A stretch of 64,000 nt of DNA from Terriglobia bacterium (lineage in GTDB: Bacteria > Acidobacteriota > UBA6911). The notes below the pieces were generated by a model, which was given only the letters and a program-made list of their open reading frames with translations, was not told the origin of the DNA and made no database searches. The DNA is taken from the NCBI GenBank assembly GCA_020072565.1, contig JAIQGI010000004.1, positions 1 through 64,000 on the forward strand. Reading direction: 5' to 3'. The translations under genes were made by a program, and so were the position numbers. Numbering within the stretch: the stretch's first letter is position 1; every line of letters starts with the position of its first letter. Positions 20,829 to 27,867 of this stretch are shown here, piece by piece.

Positions 20829-23800
20829 TCAATTTCTGCTGGCGGTCAGGCAGCGGGCCGGGTCGGTGACGGCGCCGATCTTGGCAGCGAAGCCGGTTTG
20901 TTTTGCGATCTCCTGCTGCGTGACGATGCGGACGTCGAGCAGACCCTTGCGCTTATAGCCGGTTCGCAAATAATTCATTTCTGCCAGCGCGAGACTCCAG
21001 CCCTCGAGCCAGATCTCCAATTCATGCTTCATCGCCGGTGTACCGTCGAAATGAACAATGAGGTCAATGTCTGCCTCGGGACCGGCCGTCCCGTTCTTCG
21101 TGCTGCCGATGACATAAACGCCTTTGACGCCAAACCGGCCGGCATCGAGTTCAGCGGCGATCTTCTGAGCCATGCGGATGCGCCAGCGCGAGTTGTCGTC
21201 CGGCAGCCGGCTGGCAGGCTCGGCCTGCGGCGCGGGCGGGCTCTCGACTTCGCCCGACATGGCGAGCATGCCCACTGCTTCCTCCTGGTCCGCGTTCATG
21301 AGCACGCGGAGCACGCGTCCGCCGGTGGCACGCGGCACATCGATTACGCGGATCGTGTGGGCAAGAGCGGCGTACTCCGGCAATATCGCGGGCAGGATGT
21401 TCGGGGAGTTTCTCAGGAATGACTCCTTGAATATGATCCCGGCGTCATCGGGGTAGAGCGGGAGATACCGGATGCCCGATTCCACCAGATCCTGGAAAAA
21501 GTGGGTGCCGAAGGAGAGGTCGGGAACGTAACCGCCCGTCTTGCGTGCGATCTCGACGAGGACCGCAGTGTTGTTGATGTCCGAATAGGTGACACTGACC
21601 CCGAGCTTGATGTCGCCGCGGCTGCCCCAGCGCCCCGGGCCCATGAGGATGAACTTGCGTTTGGGAAGAATCTTGTTCAGGTTGCTTACGGCACGCCCGA
21701 CGGCCTGCAGATCGGCCAGGTTCGTGAGCCGGCTGTAGCCGTCCGGATCCACATAGACGACGTGCGTGATATCGGCAGTCTTGCCGTTGGAAACATAACG
21801 ATTGGCAGAGAAGATGATCTGGCTTTCCGGGATGTCTCTCGGAATGGGAGACGGGACGCTTTCGAGCGAGTAGCTTTGCGGGCGGCACTGGAGGAGGTAG
21901 AAGTTGCTGCCGTCGCAGGCAAACTCGATGTCGACGGGCGTGCGCATCGTGTTGCGCAGCAGCGCGAAAAGACTCTTCATCTGGCTGAGGAAAGGGGTCC
22001 GCGCAATCAGGCCCTCAAAGGTGATGACGACGTCGTCTCTCTCGAAATCGAGGTTGAACGCGTTGGGAGTGCGCATGCGATCGTCCTCGAAGATGGAAAT
22101 GAGATTGCCTATGCCGGGGTATTGGGCTCCGACATCGGCCAGGACATCAGACAGCTCCATCGTCCGGAAGGCATTGTCGGCGAGATCGATTACGTCGATT
22201 TTCTTGGGAGCATAGCGGATGGTCTCCTCGGGCGTCACGTTGACGCGCAGGTGGGGCTGCCCCGGAGCGACCAGGATCGGATAATCGTCGGCCACGCGAT
22301 CGACGGCACGAGTTCCGAGGCCCGGCACAAGGCGCAGCAGGCCATCCTCGCGTTTGATCCGGGGCGACCAACGGAACTCGTTGTTGGAGAATCCGACGCC
22401 GGAAAAGGCGGGGAAGAAATAGCGCCCCACCCGGGTGCCGACCACCTCCTGGATCATGATGCCCATCTCTTCATGCTGGTCGAGCAATCCTCTCTCGGCG
22501 CGGTACTGAATCGGATCCGGGCTGAAAACCGAGGCGTACACCTCGGCGAGCGCATCGAGCAGTGCTGCCAGCCGGCTTGCCCTCTCCCCCTGGTTGGCCA
22601 GAAACAGGCTCTTATACTTTCCCGAGAAGGCCGCGCCCATGCGATCCTCGAGCAGGCTCGAGCTCCTGACGATCAGCGGGTGGTCGCCGAAATCATCGAG
22701 AGCGGTGGAAATACCCTGTAGGATGTCCGGCGGGAACCTGGAGCTCTTGAAGACTTGGAGAATATGCGGATATTCCTCCCGGATCTGATCGATATCGAGG
22801 TACTTCCAGTTGTATACGTCGTCGAGGTTGTTGTAGGCGAGAAAGTGCAGGAGCATGTCCGAAGGAAGGTACCAGGTCTTCGGAATCCGGATGTCGGTCA
22901 GCAGATCGGAATAGTCCTTCGCGCCCTGGAGGATATGCGAAGCGAGAAACAACCCGCTGGTTTTGCCGCCCAGTTTGCCGTGGCTCTTCGGCACCAGGAT
23001 GGTATGTTTCAGGAGGTCGAAGAAATCCTCCACCTCGAGGTGCTTGCGCGACGTTTCGATGAAGTCGAGATCATCGGTCAGCAGGCGGCGCACGAGGGAG
23101 GTCTTCAGGCCGACCTGCGTTGCCACCGACAGTTCGCGTGAATTGATGCCTGTGTGCTGAAATCGCTCCATGGCGTTCGCGATCTCGACCAGGGAAGTGT
23201 CAGCGGCCTCGAGCGCCTGAACGAGGAAGTTGACCCGGTCCTCTTTGATCCAGATCTGGATCAAGGACAGCAGTTCCTGCTCGGCGAGGTAATGTGCGGC
23301 AATGAGGAATGTCTCTTCCGTGATCGCGTCCAGGTCCCTGGGTTCGGCCTTCTGCAGCGGACGGTTTTCGTCGTAGGGTATCTCGTCCTGCTCCCGTGCG
23401 CCCGACAGGGTGCGCAGCAAATCCTTGGCTTTGCCGATGCCGTTGATCGACAGGTAATTGAGCATCTTGCGCGCGATCTGTTTGAACAGGTCCGGATCGG
23501 TCGTTTTTAAAAGGTCAAGGATGATGCGCCAGTCTTGCCGTGCCACGTCGGTTGCCGAGGTATTCCACTGCTTGACGTGCCCTGCGTTCCTGAGTTCGCG
23601 CTGAAGCACAGCCTGGCCGATCCGATCTGCGATCATCTTGATCAATTGATATTCTTCTTTGAGGAACGGTCCCTCATCCGCCTCCGGCAACTCTCGCGTG
23701 TAAGCAACTGTAATGCTGCCGACCTCTTCTCCCTGCACAAAGATGGGCGCCCTTTGTACCCAGCGTGTTTCATAAAAACCGGGCATGCTGATGGTCCGGT

Positions 23801-24026
23801 TCTGAAAGATAATTCTTGCCTGACAGAACTGGGGATATTGCCATCCGGCGGGGATCGCCTCGGTGATCAGACGAAGCAGTTCGCTAAAGGGCTTGTCCGA
23901 TTGAAGGATCTCGTCGATCGTGTAGATGGATTTCAGCTCTTTGGCGCGCTCTTGCAGCACGCTCAGGACTTTATCGAGAGGCGTGATTCGATCGCTGGCT
24001 GCCGGTTCCTGCCTTGATTCGCCCAT
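20829..24026 (-). CDS. GAF-like / PEP-pyruvate-binding ATP-grasp / nucleotidyltransferase fusion protein
   Basis: 1065 residues in three parts. Residues about 10-150 look like a GAF-type sensor (LKSIYTIDEIL, GWQYPQFCQARIIF, VGSITVAYTREL). Residues about 340-730 carry the pyruvate-phosphate-dikinase ATP-binding domain: GGKTSGLFLASHIL, HPLIVRSSSLLEDRMGAAFSGKY, IMIQEVVGTRVG, DIEFACDGSNFYLLQCRPQS. A conserved-looking GPGRWGSRGDIKLGV follows. The C-terminus has a nucleotidyltransferase core, VYVIGSTKNGTAGPEADIDL (GS and DxD). The phosphohistidine swivel domain and the PEP-binding barrel of true PpsA/PPDK are absent. The ATG at 24026 is used because the longer frame to 24083 translates an intergenic repeat. 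Reaction unknown. Confidence 0.82.
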   Translation of the reverse strand: MGESRQEPAASDRITPLDKVLSVLQERAKELKSIYTIDEILQSDKPFSELLRLITEAIPAGWQYPQFCQARIIFQNRTISMPGFYETRWVQRAPIFVQGEEVGSITVAYTRELPEADEGPFLKEEYQLIKMIADRIGQAVLQRELRNAGHVKQWNTSATDVARQDWRIILDLLKTTDPDLFKQIARKMLNYLSINGIGKAKDLLRTLSGAREQDEIPYDENRPLQKAEPRDLDAITEETFLIAAHYLAEQELLSLIQIWIKEDRVNFLVQALEAADTSLVEIANAMERFQHTGINSRELSVATQVGLKTSLVRRLLTDDLDFIETSRKHLEVEDFFDLLKHTILVPKSHGKLGGKTSGLFLASHILQGAKDYSDLLTDIRIPKTWYLPSDMLLHFLAYNNLDDVYNWKYLDIDQIREEYPHILQVFKSSRFPPDILQGISTALDDFGDHPLIVRSSSLLEDRMGAAFSGKYKSLFLANQGERASRLAALLDALAEVYASVFSPDPIQYRAERGLLDQHEEMGIMIQEVVGTRVGRYFFPAFSGVGFSNNEFRWSPRIKREDGLLRLVPGLGTRAVDRVADDYPILVAPGQPHLRVNVTPEETIRYAPKKIDVIDLADNAFRTMELSDVLADVGAQYPGIGNLISIFEDDRMRTPNAFNLDFERDDVVITFEGLIARTPFLSQMKSLFALLRNTMRTPVDIEFACDGSNFYLLQCRPQSYSLESVPSPIPRDIPESQIIFSANRYVSNGKTADITHVVYVDPDGYSRLTNLADLQAVGRAVSNLNKILPKRKFILMGPGRWGSRGDIKLGVSVTYSDINNTAVLVEIARKTGGYVPDLSFGTHFFQDLVESGIRYLPLYPDDAGIIFKESFLRNSPNILPAILPEYAALAHTIRVIDVPRATGGRVLRVLMNADQEEAVGMLAMSGEVESPPAPQAEPASRLPDDNSRWRIRMAQKIAAELDAGRFGVKGVYVIGSTKNGTAGPEADIDLIVHFDGTPAMKHELEIWLEGWSLALAEMNYLRTGYKRKGLLDVRIVTQQEIAKQTGFAAKIGAVTDPARCLTASRN

Positions 24027-24034
24027 TGCCGTCA

Positions 24035-24150
24035 GGAGTCCGGAGTCAGGAGTCAAGAGTCGGAAGGATGAAATCATACTCATGTGTCCATGCTCGGAAG
24101 CTGGACTGTTGAGCTTTTCTTCTGACTCCCGTCTCCTGACTCCGGACTCC
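24035..24150. repeat. 18-bp perfect inverted repeat of GAGTC units
   Basis: GGAGTCCGGAGTCAGGAG at 24035-24052 and its exact complement at 24133-24150 flank an 80-base loop; each arm continues into further GACTCC/GGAGTC units (24031-24062 and 24122-24151). It lies between gdhA and the fusion-protein gene. Reading it as protein gives the LLTPDSGLLT-like peptide, which is why the upstream start was rejected. Confidence 0.85.
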
Positions 24151-24200: not shown

Positions 24201-25487
24201 TTAGACCCAGCCGCGGTCTTTGCATGCCTGAGCCACGCGGCTGATCGCGATGACGTAGGCTGCATCTCTCATATAGAGCTTCTTCTTCTTTGCCAGTTCA
24301 TGAACCGCGTGGAAGGCCGAGGTCATTTTGGTGTCGAGCCGGTTGAGGACTTCATCCTTTTCCCAGAAGAAGTTCATGTTGCTCTGCACCTGCTCGAAGT
24401 AGCTGCAGGTGACGCCGCCGGCGTTGGCCAGGAAATCGGGAATCACGAAAATCCCACGCGGTTTCAAAGCTGCGTCGGCTTCGGGTGTTGTGGGTCCGTT
24501 CGCTCCTTCGGCGATGATCCTGACCCTTTTCTGAATCTTGCCGGTATTTTCGCCCGTGATCTGGTTTTCCAGCGCGGCCGGGATGAGGATGTCCACGTTC
24601 TGCTCCAGCCAGGCCTCTCCGGGCAGCACCTCATAGCCCAGTTTGCGCGCCTTGTCCTTGTCGATGCCGCCGAAGCGGTCGGTGATGGCCAGCAAGGCAT
24701 CCACGTCGACGCCGGAAGCGAGCTTGAAGGCGTACGAGGTCTGGTCGTTCTGATCCCAGGAGGAGACACAAATGACCGTGCCGCCCATCTGCTGATAAAG
24801 GCGGATCGCGTATTGTGCAACGTTGCCAAAGCCCTGCACGCTTGCGACTGTTTTCTCAGTATTGGCGCCAAGCTCATGGAGCGCCTCGCGCAGCGTGTAG
24901 ACCACCCCATAACCGGTAGCCTCGGTGCGCCCGAGCGAGCCGCCCATGCCCACGGGCTTTCCGGTAATGAATCCGGGATATTTGCCGCCATGGATGACTT
25001 CAAACTCATCCAGAATCCACAGCATGTGCTGGGCATTGGTCATGACATCGGGTGCGGGCACGTCCGCCAGCGGCCCGACATTCCGCGCGATTTGCCGAAC
25101 CCAGCCGCGGCAGATGGCCTCCTGCTCGCGCTGGCTCAGATTGTGCGGATCGCATATCACTCCGCCCTTGGCGCCACCAAGGGGAATATCGACCACGGCG
25201 CACTTCCAGGTCATCCACATGGACAGGGCCCGGACGGTGTCGATCGTTTCCTGCGGGTGAAAGCGGATGCCGCCCTTGGAAGGGCCGCGCGCATCGTTGT
25301 GCTGCACACGGAAACCGCGGAAAATCCTGACGCTGCCGTCGTCCATCCGGACCGGGATGTTGAACTGATACTCACGCATCGGATTTCGCAACAATTCCTT
25401 GGTTGCCTTATCGAGGTTAAGCTGGTCGGCTACACGGTCAAACTGCGTCTGTGCCATCTGAAATGCACTAAAAGAGTTATTGCTCAT
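24201..25487 (-). CDS. gdhA: Glutamate dehydrogenase (Glu/Leu/Phe/Val dehydrogenase family)
   Basis: Interconverts glutamate and 2-oxoglutarate plus ammonia with NAD(P). 428 residues. Motifs: GGIRFHP and MTWKCAVVDIPLGGAKGGV (substrate site and catalytic Lys), PAPDVMTN, GRTEATGYGVVY, QGFGNVAQYA (dinucleotide-binding Rossmann loop), NANGPTTPEAD-like EGANGPTTPEAD and NAGGVTCSYFEQVQ. The length fits the hexameric small-subunit class. The ATG at 25487 is selected because GGAG lies 6 bases upstream; in-frame GTG and ATG codons further up are less well placed. Cofactor preference was not decided. Confidence 0.95.
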   Translation of the reverse strand: MSNNSFSAFQMAQTQFDRVADQLNLDKATKELLRNPMREYQFNIPVRMDDGSVRIFRGFRVQHNDARGPSKGGIRFHPQETIDTVRALSMWMTWKCAVVDIPLGGAKGGVICDPHNLSQREQEAICRGWVRQIARNVGPLADVPAPDVMTNAQHMLWILDEFEVIHGGKYPGFITGKPVGMGGSLGRTEATGYGVVYTLREALHELGANTEKTVASVQGFGNVAQYAIRLYQQMGGTVICVSSWDQNDQTSYAFKLASGVDVDALLAITDRFGGIDKDKARKLGYEVLPGEAWLEQNVDILIPAALENQITGENTGKIQKRVRIIAEGANGPTTPEADAALKPRGIFVIPDFLANAGGVTCSYFEQVQSNMNFFWEKDEVLNRLDTKMTSAFHAVHELAKKKKLYMRDAAYVIAISRVAQACKDRGWV

Positions 25488-25729
25488 TCTCATCTCCACG
25501 TGTAATCAGGCCCGGGGAGGACCCGGATAAAAAGAAAGGCATGATGACTTGCCCTGGTAATGACTATCGCCGGCCTCTCTGCCGTGTGGTCGGGAAGGCG
25601 CGGACCTCGCATTATACATCCGGCATGGGGATTGGTGTAGAGCCGCGCATCAAATGACGAGCGACAGGCGGTTCCATTCCTGCCCGTCATTTGTCTTGTG
25701 GCGGCCGCGGTTTGCGCTGCCGGCGCCGG

Positions 25730-27157
25730 CTACTCGCTTTCGGCGGTTTTCCTGGCCGTTCTCGGCCTTCTGGCCGTGGCTCTCGTGCGTCTGGCCGTCA
25801 ACGGAGCTCCGGTTGTTCTCCTGCGCCTTGGTTTCTCCTCGGCAGCGGCCGCCGGCGCATCCTGAGGTGGTTCTTCGCTCAGGCTTTCTACCGGAGACTC
25901 GACCATGGCCTCGATCGCTGGTTCCAGGGGATGCGGCGCATCGGTTCCGGGAAAGACCTCAGCTGCCGGAACCGTCGTTTCTACAGACGCCGCCTCCTCC
26001 GCCTCCCCGGGCGACTCAGGTTGATCGGCTTGCGGGAACTGGTCGCCAGGATAGATGCGGAGGATGCCCTGACGATTGCGCTCGATCCGGAGCAGACCCT
26101 CGCGCTGCGCCTGGCGGGCCAAGTCATGAATGCTGGAAATGCCAAAGCGGCGCTCATCAAACGAGGGATCGGCTGACCGGAGCAAGTGCTTGAAGCTGCG
26201 CAGATACATGGGCCAGTGCGACTTGGACCCCATCTGCCCCAGGATCCGGCGGACGGCAACGACCGCTCCTGCGTATTGAGCCGGAGCCGCCGCCGGCTCT
26301 CCGGCAGGCGCAGGAGCCGACTCCGGCTCGGCCTCCTGGGGAACGGCGGCGGCGGCATGAGGGGGGGCCACGACCGGGGCAGCCGGCGTCGGTGCGTTCT
26401 CACCATCGTTAAGCCCCACCAGCAGGCTGCGGTCCACCTGTTTGAGGTTGACGAAGCCCGCATTGGCCATTTTCTGGATGAACTCGCGGAAGGAATGGAC
26501 GCCGTAGTCACGTTCGGAAAATGTTGAATCGAGCTGCAACAGAGTGCTCTTCAACAGGCCAAGCTGAGGTGACACCTCGCGATCCGCCAGGATCTCGAGA
26601 GCGCGACGCAGGGGCGGGAAAGCGTCCCGCAACTGGGCAGTACTTACGGCAGGCGTCTTCCCGGCGGCTTTGCGGACGACCGGATGGATGCCGATCAGGT
26701 TCTCGTAGGCAATGAACTCGTGGCAGTTCTTCTGCAGGATGCTGCTGGTAAAGGAGCGTCCTCCTACCACGAACACCATCTTGTCGTACTGCTTGAGCTT
26801 CTCCACGAGCGCGATGAAATCACTGTCGCCGCCGACGATTACAAAAGCGTTGATGTGGCTTCTTGTGAACGCCATCTCGAGGGCGTCCAACGCCAGCGTG
26901 ATATCGGCGCCATTCTTGTCCCCGCCCGGCGTCAGGTTGCGCTGAACCATGTGTACGGCATGCTGGGTCATGGCCCGGCTGTAATCTGCGGCATGCTTCC
27001 AGTCGCCGTATGCGATCTTTGTCACCACCTCACCGCGTTCCTTGATCGCTTCCAGAACCGTCCCGACATCGAAGTGCCTGGAAAGCGTTTTCTTTACCCC
27101 GATCTCGATGTTGTCGAAATCGATAAAGACGGCGATCTTTAAACGTTCTTCACTCAA
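25730..27157 (-). CDS. NYN-domain protein with two OST-HTH/LOTUS domains
   Basis: 475 residues from a TTG start at 27157, chosen because TGAGGT lies 7 bases upstream and the protein then begins right before the NYN fold. The NYN (PIN-like) nuclease domain at about 5-155 shows VFIDFDN (D13, D15), GADITLALD (D85) and GGDSDF (D111, D113), a full acidic set for metal-dependent RNA cleavage. Two LOTUS/OST-HTH domains follow (about 175-248 and 297-369) with YGVHSFREF and FGISSIHDL, separated by a Pro/Ala-rich linker. An acidic stretch and a strongly Arg-rich tail end it. By analogy with MARF1/LabA-type proteins it may be a sequence- or structure-guided RNase; target unknown. Confidence 0.88.
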   Translation of the reverse strand: MSEERLKIAVFIDFDNIEIGVKKTLSRHFDVGTVLEAIKERGEVVTKIAYGDWKHAADYSRAMTQHAVHMVQRNLTPGGDKNGADITLALDALEMAFTRSHINAFVIVGGDSDFIALVEKLKQYDKMVFVVGGRSFTSSILQKNCHEFIAYENLIGIHPVVRKAAGKTPAVSTAQLRDAFPPLRRALEILADREVSPQLGLLKSTLLQLDSTFSERDYGVHSFREFIQKMANAGFVNLKQVDRSLLVGLNDGENAPTPAAPVVAPPHAAAAVPQEAEPESAPAPAGEPAAAPAQYAGAVVAVRRILGQMGSKSHWPMYLRSFKHLLRSADPSFDERRFGISSIHDLARQAQREGLLRIERNRQGILRIYPGDQFPQADQPESPGEAEEAASVETTVPAAEVFPGTDAPHPLEPAIEAMVESPVESLSEEPPQDAPAAAAEEKPRRRRTTGAPLTARRTRATARRPRTARKTAESE

Positions 27158-27465
27158 GTTATCTACCTCAATGAGCCTCGGCTCTTTGCAACAGTGCAGA
27201 GGACTATGTTTGCTCCTCGGCCGGGATTGCATCCACCATTTGTTATGTATGCCACCCGCGTGTCTCGGCGATCTGGCCCACGCATCATGATGGCATTCGG
27301 CAAGAGAAAGCGAACACCAGCAGTTTTGCCGGGGTGTGACGAAATAATTATACCAGTTTCTGCTTGTGCCGTCCGGGCAAATCGCGCAGCCCCTGGCCCG
27401 CGCCGCCGCGCGGCCCCCCGGTATGGACTGTTCACTGGTGATTGTGAGGTCTTGGCGGACAGGGC
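27158..27465 (-). other. Leader and intergenic region of the NYN-LOTUS gene
   Basis: 308 bases between the NYN start and the receiver-domain gene. The NYN frame stays open up to 27541, but its translation here (Cys/Trp/His-rich, low similarity to any protein) looks non-coding, and an extended -10 promoter lies inside it at 27347-27355. Confidence 0.55.
27347..27355 (-). promoter_or_regulatory. Extended -10 promoter for the NYN-LOTUS gene
   Basis: On the minus strand the sequence reads TGGTATAAT, a perfect TGn extension plus consensus -10. No good -35 is visible, as is usual for this class. It would give a leader of about 180 bases before the TTG start at 27157, and it lies downstream of the longer possible starts of the frame, which supports the shorter protein. 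Confidence 0.55.
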
Positions 27466-27867
27466 TCAGTCTGCTTCCCCTGGGCCGTCGAGCAATTCGC
27501 GGATTTTTTGCAGCAACTCCGCCGGAGAAAAAGGCTTCCAAATGAAGGAATCCACGCTTTCGAGGATGCCGTGGTTGACCACGGTATATTTTGTGTATCC
27601 CGACATATATAAGACATGAACCCCGGGCTTCCGAGCCTGGAGTCTTTGAATCAACTCGCCGCCGCTCATGCCAGGCATTACGATGTCCGTCAGGACAAGG
27701 TCGATGGGGCCGGTGTGCTTCTCCTCGATTTGCAGAGCTTCCTCGCCGTTGCGGGCGGAAATTACGTTATAGCCCTCATCCTGGAGAATGTTATTAACAA
27801 GATCCAGGACAACCGGCTCATCTTCTACGACCAGAATCGTTTTCGCGTTGCTGCCTGTGGCCGTCAT
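27466..27867 (-). CDS. Single-domain response regulator (receiver domain)
   Basis: 133 residues, a CheY-like receiver with no output domain. Acidic pair in VVEDEP, phospho-acceptor Asp in LVLTDIVMPGMSG, switch Ser in YMSGYT and conserved Lys in WKPFSPAEL. The sequence resembles receiver domains found at the C-terminus of hybrid sensor kinases. The start at 27867 is supported by GAGAGGG 5 bases upstream; the longer frame has no such site. No histidine kinase is encoded nearby, so the partner is encoded elsewhere. Confidence 0.88.
   Translation of the reverse strand: MTATGSNAKTILVVEDEPVVLDLVNNILQDEGYNVISARNGEEALQIEEKHTGPIDLVLTDIVMPGMSGGELIQRLQARKPGVHVLYMSGYTKYTVVNHGILESVDSFIWKPFSPAELLQKIRELLDGPGEAD

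Follow-up and report, generated by a model that had tools for sequence, protein, structure and literature searches.

The dikinases PpsA and PPDK combine a PPDK_N ATP-grasp domain with a phosphohistidine domain and a phosphoenolpyruvate (PEP)/pyruvate barrel. In rifampin phosphotransferase (RPH), the ATP-grasp domain (in which K22, R117 and T136 are required for phosphoryl transfer; PMC4844700) is joined to a rifampin-binding domain and to a swivel domain bearing His825. The two-component dikinase HpeHI is an example of an ATP-grasp separated from its acceptor parts (PMC12167813). VadK (Rv1127c), a truncated PPDK lacking the PEP barrel, acts as a regulatory kinase that phosphorylates itself and binds the methylcitrate-cycle enzymes methylcitrate synthase and methylcitrate dehydratase (PMC13400623), and truncated PPDK proteins can therefore turn into regulatory kinases tied to metabolic enzymes. 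Described here is a further PPDK_N protein, encoded on the reverse strand of a 64,000-nucleotide stretch of DNA from a Terriglobia bacterium (Acidobacteriota; contig JAIQGI010000004.1, positions 1 to 64,000; hereafter the window). Its ATP-grasp domain is of a known kind; the new part is the domain combination, an undescribed domain towards the C-terminus, and a linkage to glutamate dehydrogenase (GDH), which the protein probably serves as a dedicated controller or as a partner enzyme. This linkage, the strongest clue to function, was absent from a first-pass annotation of the same DNA. Neither the fusion nor the undescribed domain nor the GDH link was found in the open-access literature, most subscription journals being outside the coverage.

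Domains of the window protein

The Pfam profile PPDK_N (PF01326) matched residues 370-741 with an E-value of 1e-53 (183 bits against a cut-off of 27), and the Lys, Arg, Glu, Gln and Arg of the ATP site were present, which places the protein in the PPDK_N ATP-grasp superfamily. K374 (assigned by the PPDK_N motif), together with R473, S/T492, D/E718, E720, Q732 and R734 (assigned by phmmer alignment), aligned to catalytic residues of RPH and PPDK and was kept, as they were, in practically all of 154 relatives; RPH residues K22, R117, T136 and the Mg-binding E297 correspond to K374, R473, S492 and E720. In an AlphaFold2 model of the full-length protein, built on an 18-sequence alignment (mean pLDDT 74.6), the ATP-grasp domain matched the folds of RPH, PEP synthase and HpeI (9goj, among the top matches), RPH being its best match by both fold and sequence (5hv3, E 4e-15). 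The ATP-binding domain is thus as intact as the first-pass annotation had supposed, and a pseudo-enzyme was rejected on the strength of these conserved residues and those of the nucleotidyltransferase (NTase) considered below.

The phosphohistidine domain (PF00391) was not found at the locus in a six-frame genome search that found five elsewhere in the same genome, nor in any of 97 relatives carrying the undescribed domain, and hhalign comparison with 22 phosphohistidine domains gave a probability of 0.3%. No Pfam domain was found between residues 742 and 958 of the protein, the undescribed domain had no match, and neither a PEP/pyruvate barrel nor a drug-binding domain was detected. The absence of the mobile His domain and of the barrel, as first proposed, was therefore upheld, and since the phosphohistidine domain was sought without success, the protein was not counted among the PPDK/PpsA/RPH dikinases. 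Where PpsA and PPDK carry these two parts, the window protein has an unrelated domain and an optional NTase; it likewise lacks the rifampin-binding and His825 domains of RPH. HpeHI resembles it in having a separable ATP-grasp, but its HpeH component brings a genuine swivel domain with the histidine, as well as a site for an aromatic substrate (PMC12167813). VadK, tied to metabolic enzymes and truncated in a similar way, is a precedent for a PPDK-fold regulator (PMC13400623); in contrast to the window protein, it keeps the canonical catalytic-histidine domain, has neither GAF nor NTase, and has partners other than GDH.

The position after PPDK_N is taken by a domain of ∼200 amino acids with the motif GPGRWGS...SxGTHFF (the GTHFF domain), whose GPGRWGS part falls in the conserved GPGRWGSRGD region singled out in the first-pass annotation. 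Modelled alone, it reached a pLDDT of 94.9 and a pTM of 0.92, yet Foldseek returned no PDB match at E ≤ 0.001 and no dikinase (PPDK, PPS or RPH) among the 50 matches listed. A profile search of the PDB gave no convincing sequence relative, and the viral library held no fold match. A likeness of the model to CD38/ADP-ribosyl cyclase (probability 0.63, TM-score 0.24) was taken as noise. Within the Pfam, PDB and viral-fold libraries searched, the domain thus seems to represent a new family, and it may have a phosphoryl-acceptor fold that is new to the PPDK superfamily. Four residues (H861, R818, E844 and S857) were kept throughout all classes of the family. Since the 154-sequence set had been gathered partly via the GTHFF motif, the unbiased evidence for H861 comes from the 18-sequence alignment, which was not chosen on this residue and has it in 18 of 18 sequences.

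The N-terminal part is predicted to be a GAF domain, in keeping with the GAF-like sensor proposed earlier: the Pfam profile was weak and under its cut-off (residues 112-159, E 0.009), the modelled region matched the GAF domains of NifA and NLH1 by fold (probability 1.00), and it shares 43% identity with the GAF portion of a sensor histidine kinase encoded in the same genome. At the other end, NTP_transf_2 (PF01909) matched residues 983-1017 above its cut-off (E 2e-6), and the GS...DxD...D signature of the pol-beta nucleotidyltransferases was present; among relatives, GS was kept in 59/66, the two Asp of DxD in 59/66 and 51/66, and the third Asp in 58/65. The NTase core named in the first-pass annotation is accordingly real, and neither of the two findings which that annotation had listed as counting against it (a hidden phosphohistidine domain, or loss of the ATP-grasp or DxD residues) was encountered. 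GlnD and GlnE are pol-beta-type NTases that modify nitrogen proteins, and the window NTase recalls them by its GS...DxD...D motif and its tie to nitrogen metabolism. It differs from them in being small and of minimal type, without HD/ACT domains or GlnE repeats, and no GlnD/GlnE family appeared among the Pfam and NCBIfam matches of the protein at E ≤ 1. A defence-system reading was dropped, PADLOC having given only weak matches, to the NTase part.

Full-length orthologues with 52-74% identity share the architecture, which is therefore neither chance nor an assembly artefact. The emphasis first laid on a unique fusion did not survive: at least 577 relatives were confirmed in the genome collection, archaea included, and 119 of the 297 genomes searched in the phylum had family members. 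Common to the family is a core of PPDK_N followed by the GTHFF domain. The input domain may be GAF, receiver-like (Response_reg below cut-off) or KaiC/RecA-like (L016-L019, by sequence inspection, Pfam naming nothing there in L019), or may be missing altogether, as in proteins of 575-600 amino acids. The NTase is also an optional module, absent from many relatives, among them shorter forms (e.g. L015, L079, L141-L143); the window genome has in addition a standalone NTase gene (127 aa), and in a sister species a separate NTase gene lies near a core-only gene. A FastTree phylogeny split the GAF-type branch from the core-only plus receiver branch with high support. A viral origin was rejected, since no relatives were found in viral contigs and the viral library gave no fold match.

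Linkage to glutamate dehydrogenase

Of the 46 NTase-bearing genes whose upstream flank was 1.4 kb or longer, 43 had GDH directly upstream on the same strand, and in two of the three exceptions GDH lay slightly further away or at the end of a contig. GDH was also upstream of 11 of 17 GAF-type genes lacking the NTase and accompanied 25 of the 46 remaining core genes, these counts overlapping partly because tandem partners share one GDH. The linked taxa include Acidobacteriota, Calditrichota, Ignavibacteria, Bacteroidota, Spirochaetota, Planctomycetota, Clostridia and Lentisphaerota, about a dozen bacterial phyla in all, as well as Thermoplasmata archaea; one is the cultured isolate Oligosphaera ethanolica (Lentisphaerota, L073). 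Binning errors cannot account for a linkage seen in so many phyla, in archaea and in an isolate. Of 298 genomes of the phylum, which are related and so do not represent independent events, 52 had both a GDH of at least 60% identity and a GAF-type protein, 3 and 2 had just one of them, and 241 had neither; in the five exceptions the coordinates, as far as they go, place the gene at a contig edge or close to one.

The GDHs found in this linkage group tightly in one clade and carry many residues specific to it (T88, H119, Y289 and T393 among the nucleophiles), too many to single out one modification site. A second family gene, core-only or receiver-core, often lies between GDH and the GAF-type gene, and a calcineurin-like phosphoesterase (metallophosphoesterase) recurs as a neighbour at 24 loci, often after the family genes; beyond these three, no recurrent neighbours were found among the loci compared. 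At another locus of the window genome (L178; G000:C30:24000-40000), a receiver-core PPDK_N paralogue and a second ELFV dehydrogenase are arranged divergently, and the paralogue has after it a GAF histidine kinase and a response regulator of the sigma-54 (NtrC-like) type; this may be a second nitrogen-control locus. A third ELFV dehydrogenase of this genome lies elsewhere.

Possible functions

Undescribed, ligand-controlled transfer of a phosphoryl or nucleotidyl group, proposed before the linkage was noticed, is still the best reading of the protein, and what the linkage adds is a candidate target. The most parsimonious account, to which we give about even chances, is a sensor/transferase dedicated to GDH that would switch this enzyme through covalent modification at the expense of ATP. 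In such a scheme the window protein would be the large subunit of a regulatory system devoted to GDH, its GAF domain sensing a nitrogen or carbon metabolite (2-oxoglutarate is a guess). The ATP-grasp and GTHFF domains would use ATP to activate a phosphoryl or nucleotidyl group, the GTHFF domain, with its invariant Arg, Glu, Ser and His, occupying the usual place of the phosphohistidine carrier. The activated group, or AMP or UMP from the accessory NTase, would be placed on the neighbouring GDH or on the paralogous partner; the modification would alter GDH activity, and the metallophosphoesterase of many clusters might reverse it. A wider version, in which an ancient module of bacteria and archaea passes the group from the ATP-grasp to the H861 domain and then to GDH under interchangeable sensors, is put forward more tentatively.

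Several observations weigh against GDH modification. Both the modification and any contact with GDH are read from linkage, domains and conserved residues rather than from biochemistry; linkage alone does not tell a regulator from a co-enzyme, and the co-occurrence counts share the ancestry of the genomes surveyed. Some close relatives (L011-L014) carry Ser or Asn in place of the third NTase carboxylate. The short flanks available for several receiver-core paralogues contained no GDH, and the Chloroflexota forms (about 770-800 amino acids) are mostly without a nearby GDH, possibly indicating a wider substrate range; in Chloroflexota L107, L111, L113, L115 and L117 the core gene adjoins dnaN (DNA polymerase III beta) instead, in some also a deoxynucleoside-kinase-like gene.

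The linkage would suit a pathway as well as regulation. The protein could be a metabolic ATP-grasp kinase or ligase acting on a substrate or product of GDH (2-oxoglutarate, glutamate or ammonia), with the GTHFF domain as acceptor site and the NTase making or storing a nucleotidylated product. Many relatives consist of the ATP-grasp and GTHFF domains only, which would fit an enzyme of this sort, and PPDK_N proteins with altered partner domains are often small-molecule kinases (RPH, PMC4844700; HpeHI, PMC12167813). However, the variable sensor-like inputs resemble signalling, and no metabolic gene other than the phosphoesterase recurs beside GDH, so that this explanation, ranked second after the ATP-driven GDH modifier, is thought unlikely though credible. 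Compatible with either of these, but improbable, is a dikinase with a cryptic carrier, in which H861 would accept the ATP beta-phosphate as the swivel His of PPDK, PpsA and RPH does, via a very diverged or unrelated domain. The residues for ATP-to-His transfer are retained, H861 was invariant in the unselected alignment, it opens a helix in a beta-alpha-beta-alpha-beta-alpha order right after PPDK_N that is similar to the order of the swivel domain, and the spacing from H to GI in its loop (SFGTHFFQDLVESGI) equals that in active-site loops of the PpsA type (TCHAAIIARELGV/GI). A hidden swivel phosphohistidine domain, suggested by this spacing and secondary-structure order, nevertheless received no support from the Pfam search of the 97 members, from hhalign, from the PDB profile search or from the Foldseek search with the confidently modelled domain. 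The last possibility is that the ATP-grasp merely senses ATP, ADP or AMP and the protein controls GDH by binding, without transfer, as its multiple sensor modules might suggest. Pure nucleotide binders usually lose some catalytic residues, whereas here the full set (Lys, Arg, Glu, Gln, Arg) is kept in about 154 relatives and the NTase triad in most, and we regard such a sensor as highly improbable.

GDH stands at the crossing point of carbon and nitrogen metabolism and, to our knowledge, few dedicated prokaryotic regulators of it are known, GarA of actinobacteria being one. If GDH modification holds, a modular ATP-grasp partner beside GDH in many phyla and in archaea would constitute a general, unstudied control layer; the question is directly testable, since the gene pair occurs in a cultured bacterium.

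Gene start and further observations

Met20 of the longest frame, whose codon lies at 24026 (the end position given in the first-pass annotation), is probably the true start (Table 1), because the upstream ATG at 24083 sits between the two arms of an inverted repeat and homology to relatives sets in at about residue 20-34. The repeat, with GGAGTC-like units, may be a hairpin or REP-like element.

Table 1. Coordinates of the window gene, its domains and adjoining features
Feature	Position	Strand	Details
Window open reading frame, longest frame	20829-24083	-	1084 aa
GAF - helical linker - PPDK_N ATP-grasp - GTHFF domain - nucleotidyltransferase protein, likely frame	20829..24026	-	start Met20
GAF-like sensor domain (predicted)	23607..23981	-	about residues 35-159
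PPDK_N ATP-grasp domain	21861..22976	-	residues 370-741; K374, R473, E720, Q732, R734 intact
Undescribed C-terminal (GTHFF) domain	21240..21884	-	residues 734-948; R818, E844, S857, H861 (GPGRWGS ... SFGTHFF)
Pol-beta-type nucleotidyltransferase domain	20847..21200	-	about residues 962-1079; G993-S994, D1005xD1007, D1050
Imperfect inverted repeat	24035..24150 (arms 24035-24066 / 24119-24150)	.	32-nt arms, 88%; between GDH gene and window gene, overlaps longest-frame start region
Glutamate dehydrogenase, ELFV family	24201..25499	-	432 aa; directly upstream of window gene, same strand

Elsewhere in the window genome, a 682-aa PPDK_N protein without the GTHFF motif (L005; L179, 5658-7703) represents a further divergent branch. 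At L177 (3684-5035, G000:C2), the standalone NTase, which shares 55% identity with the window protein's C-terminal domain, is convergent with a calcineurin-like phosphoesterase gene; at the equivalent place, a core-only PPDK_N gene is present in the sister genome (L180) and missing from the window genome. Upstream of GDH in the window, a 603-aa open reading frame (25730-27541, reverse strand) looks NYN-domain-like by eye; in the sister genome (L181), too, GDH is preceded by a relative of the C-terminal part of this frame.
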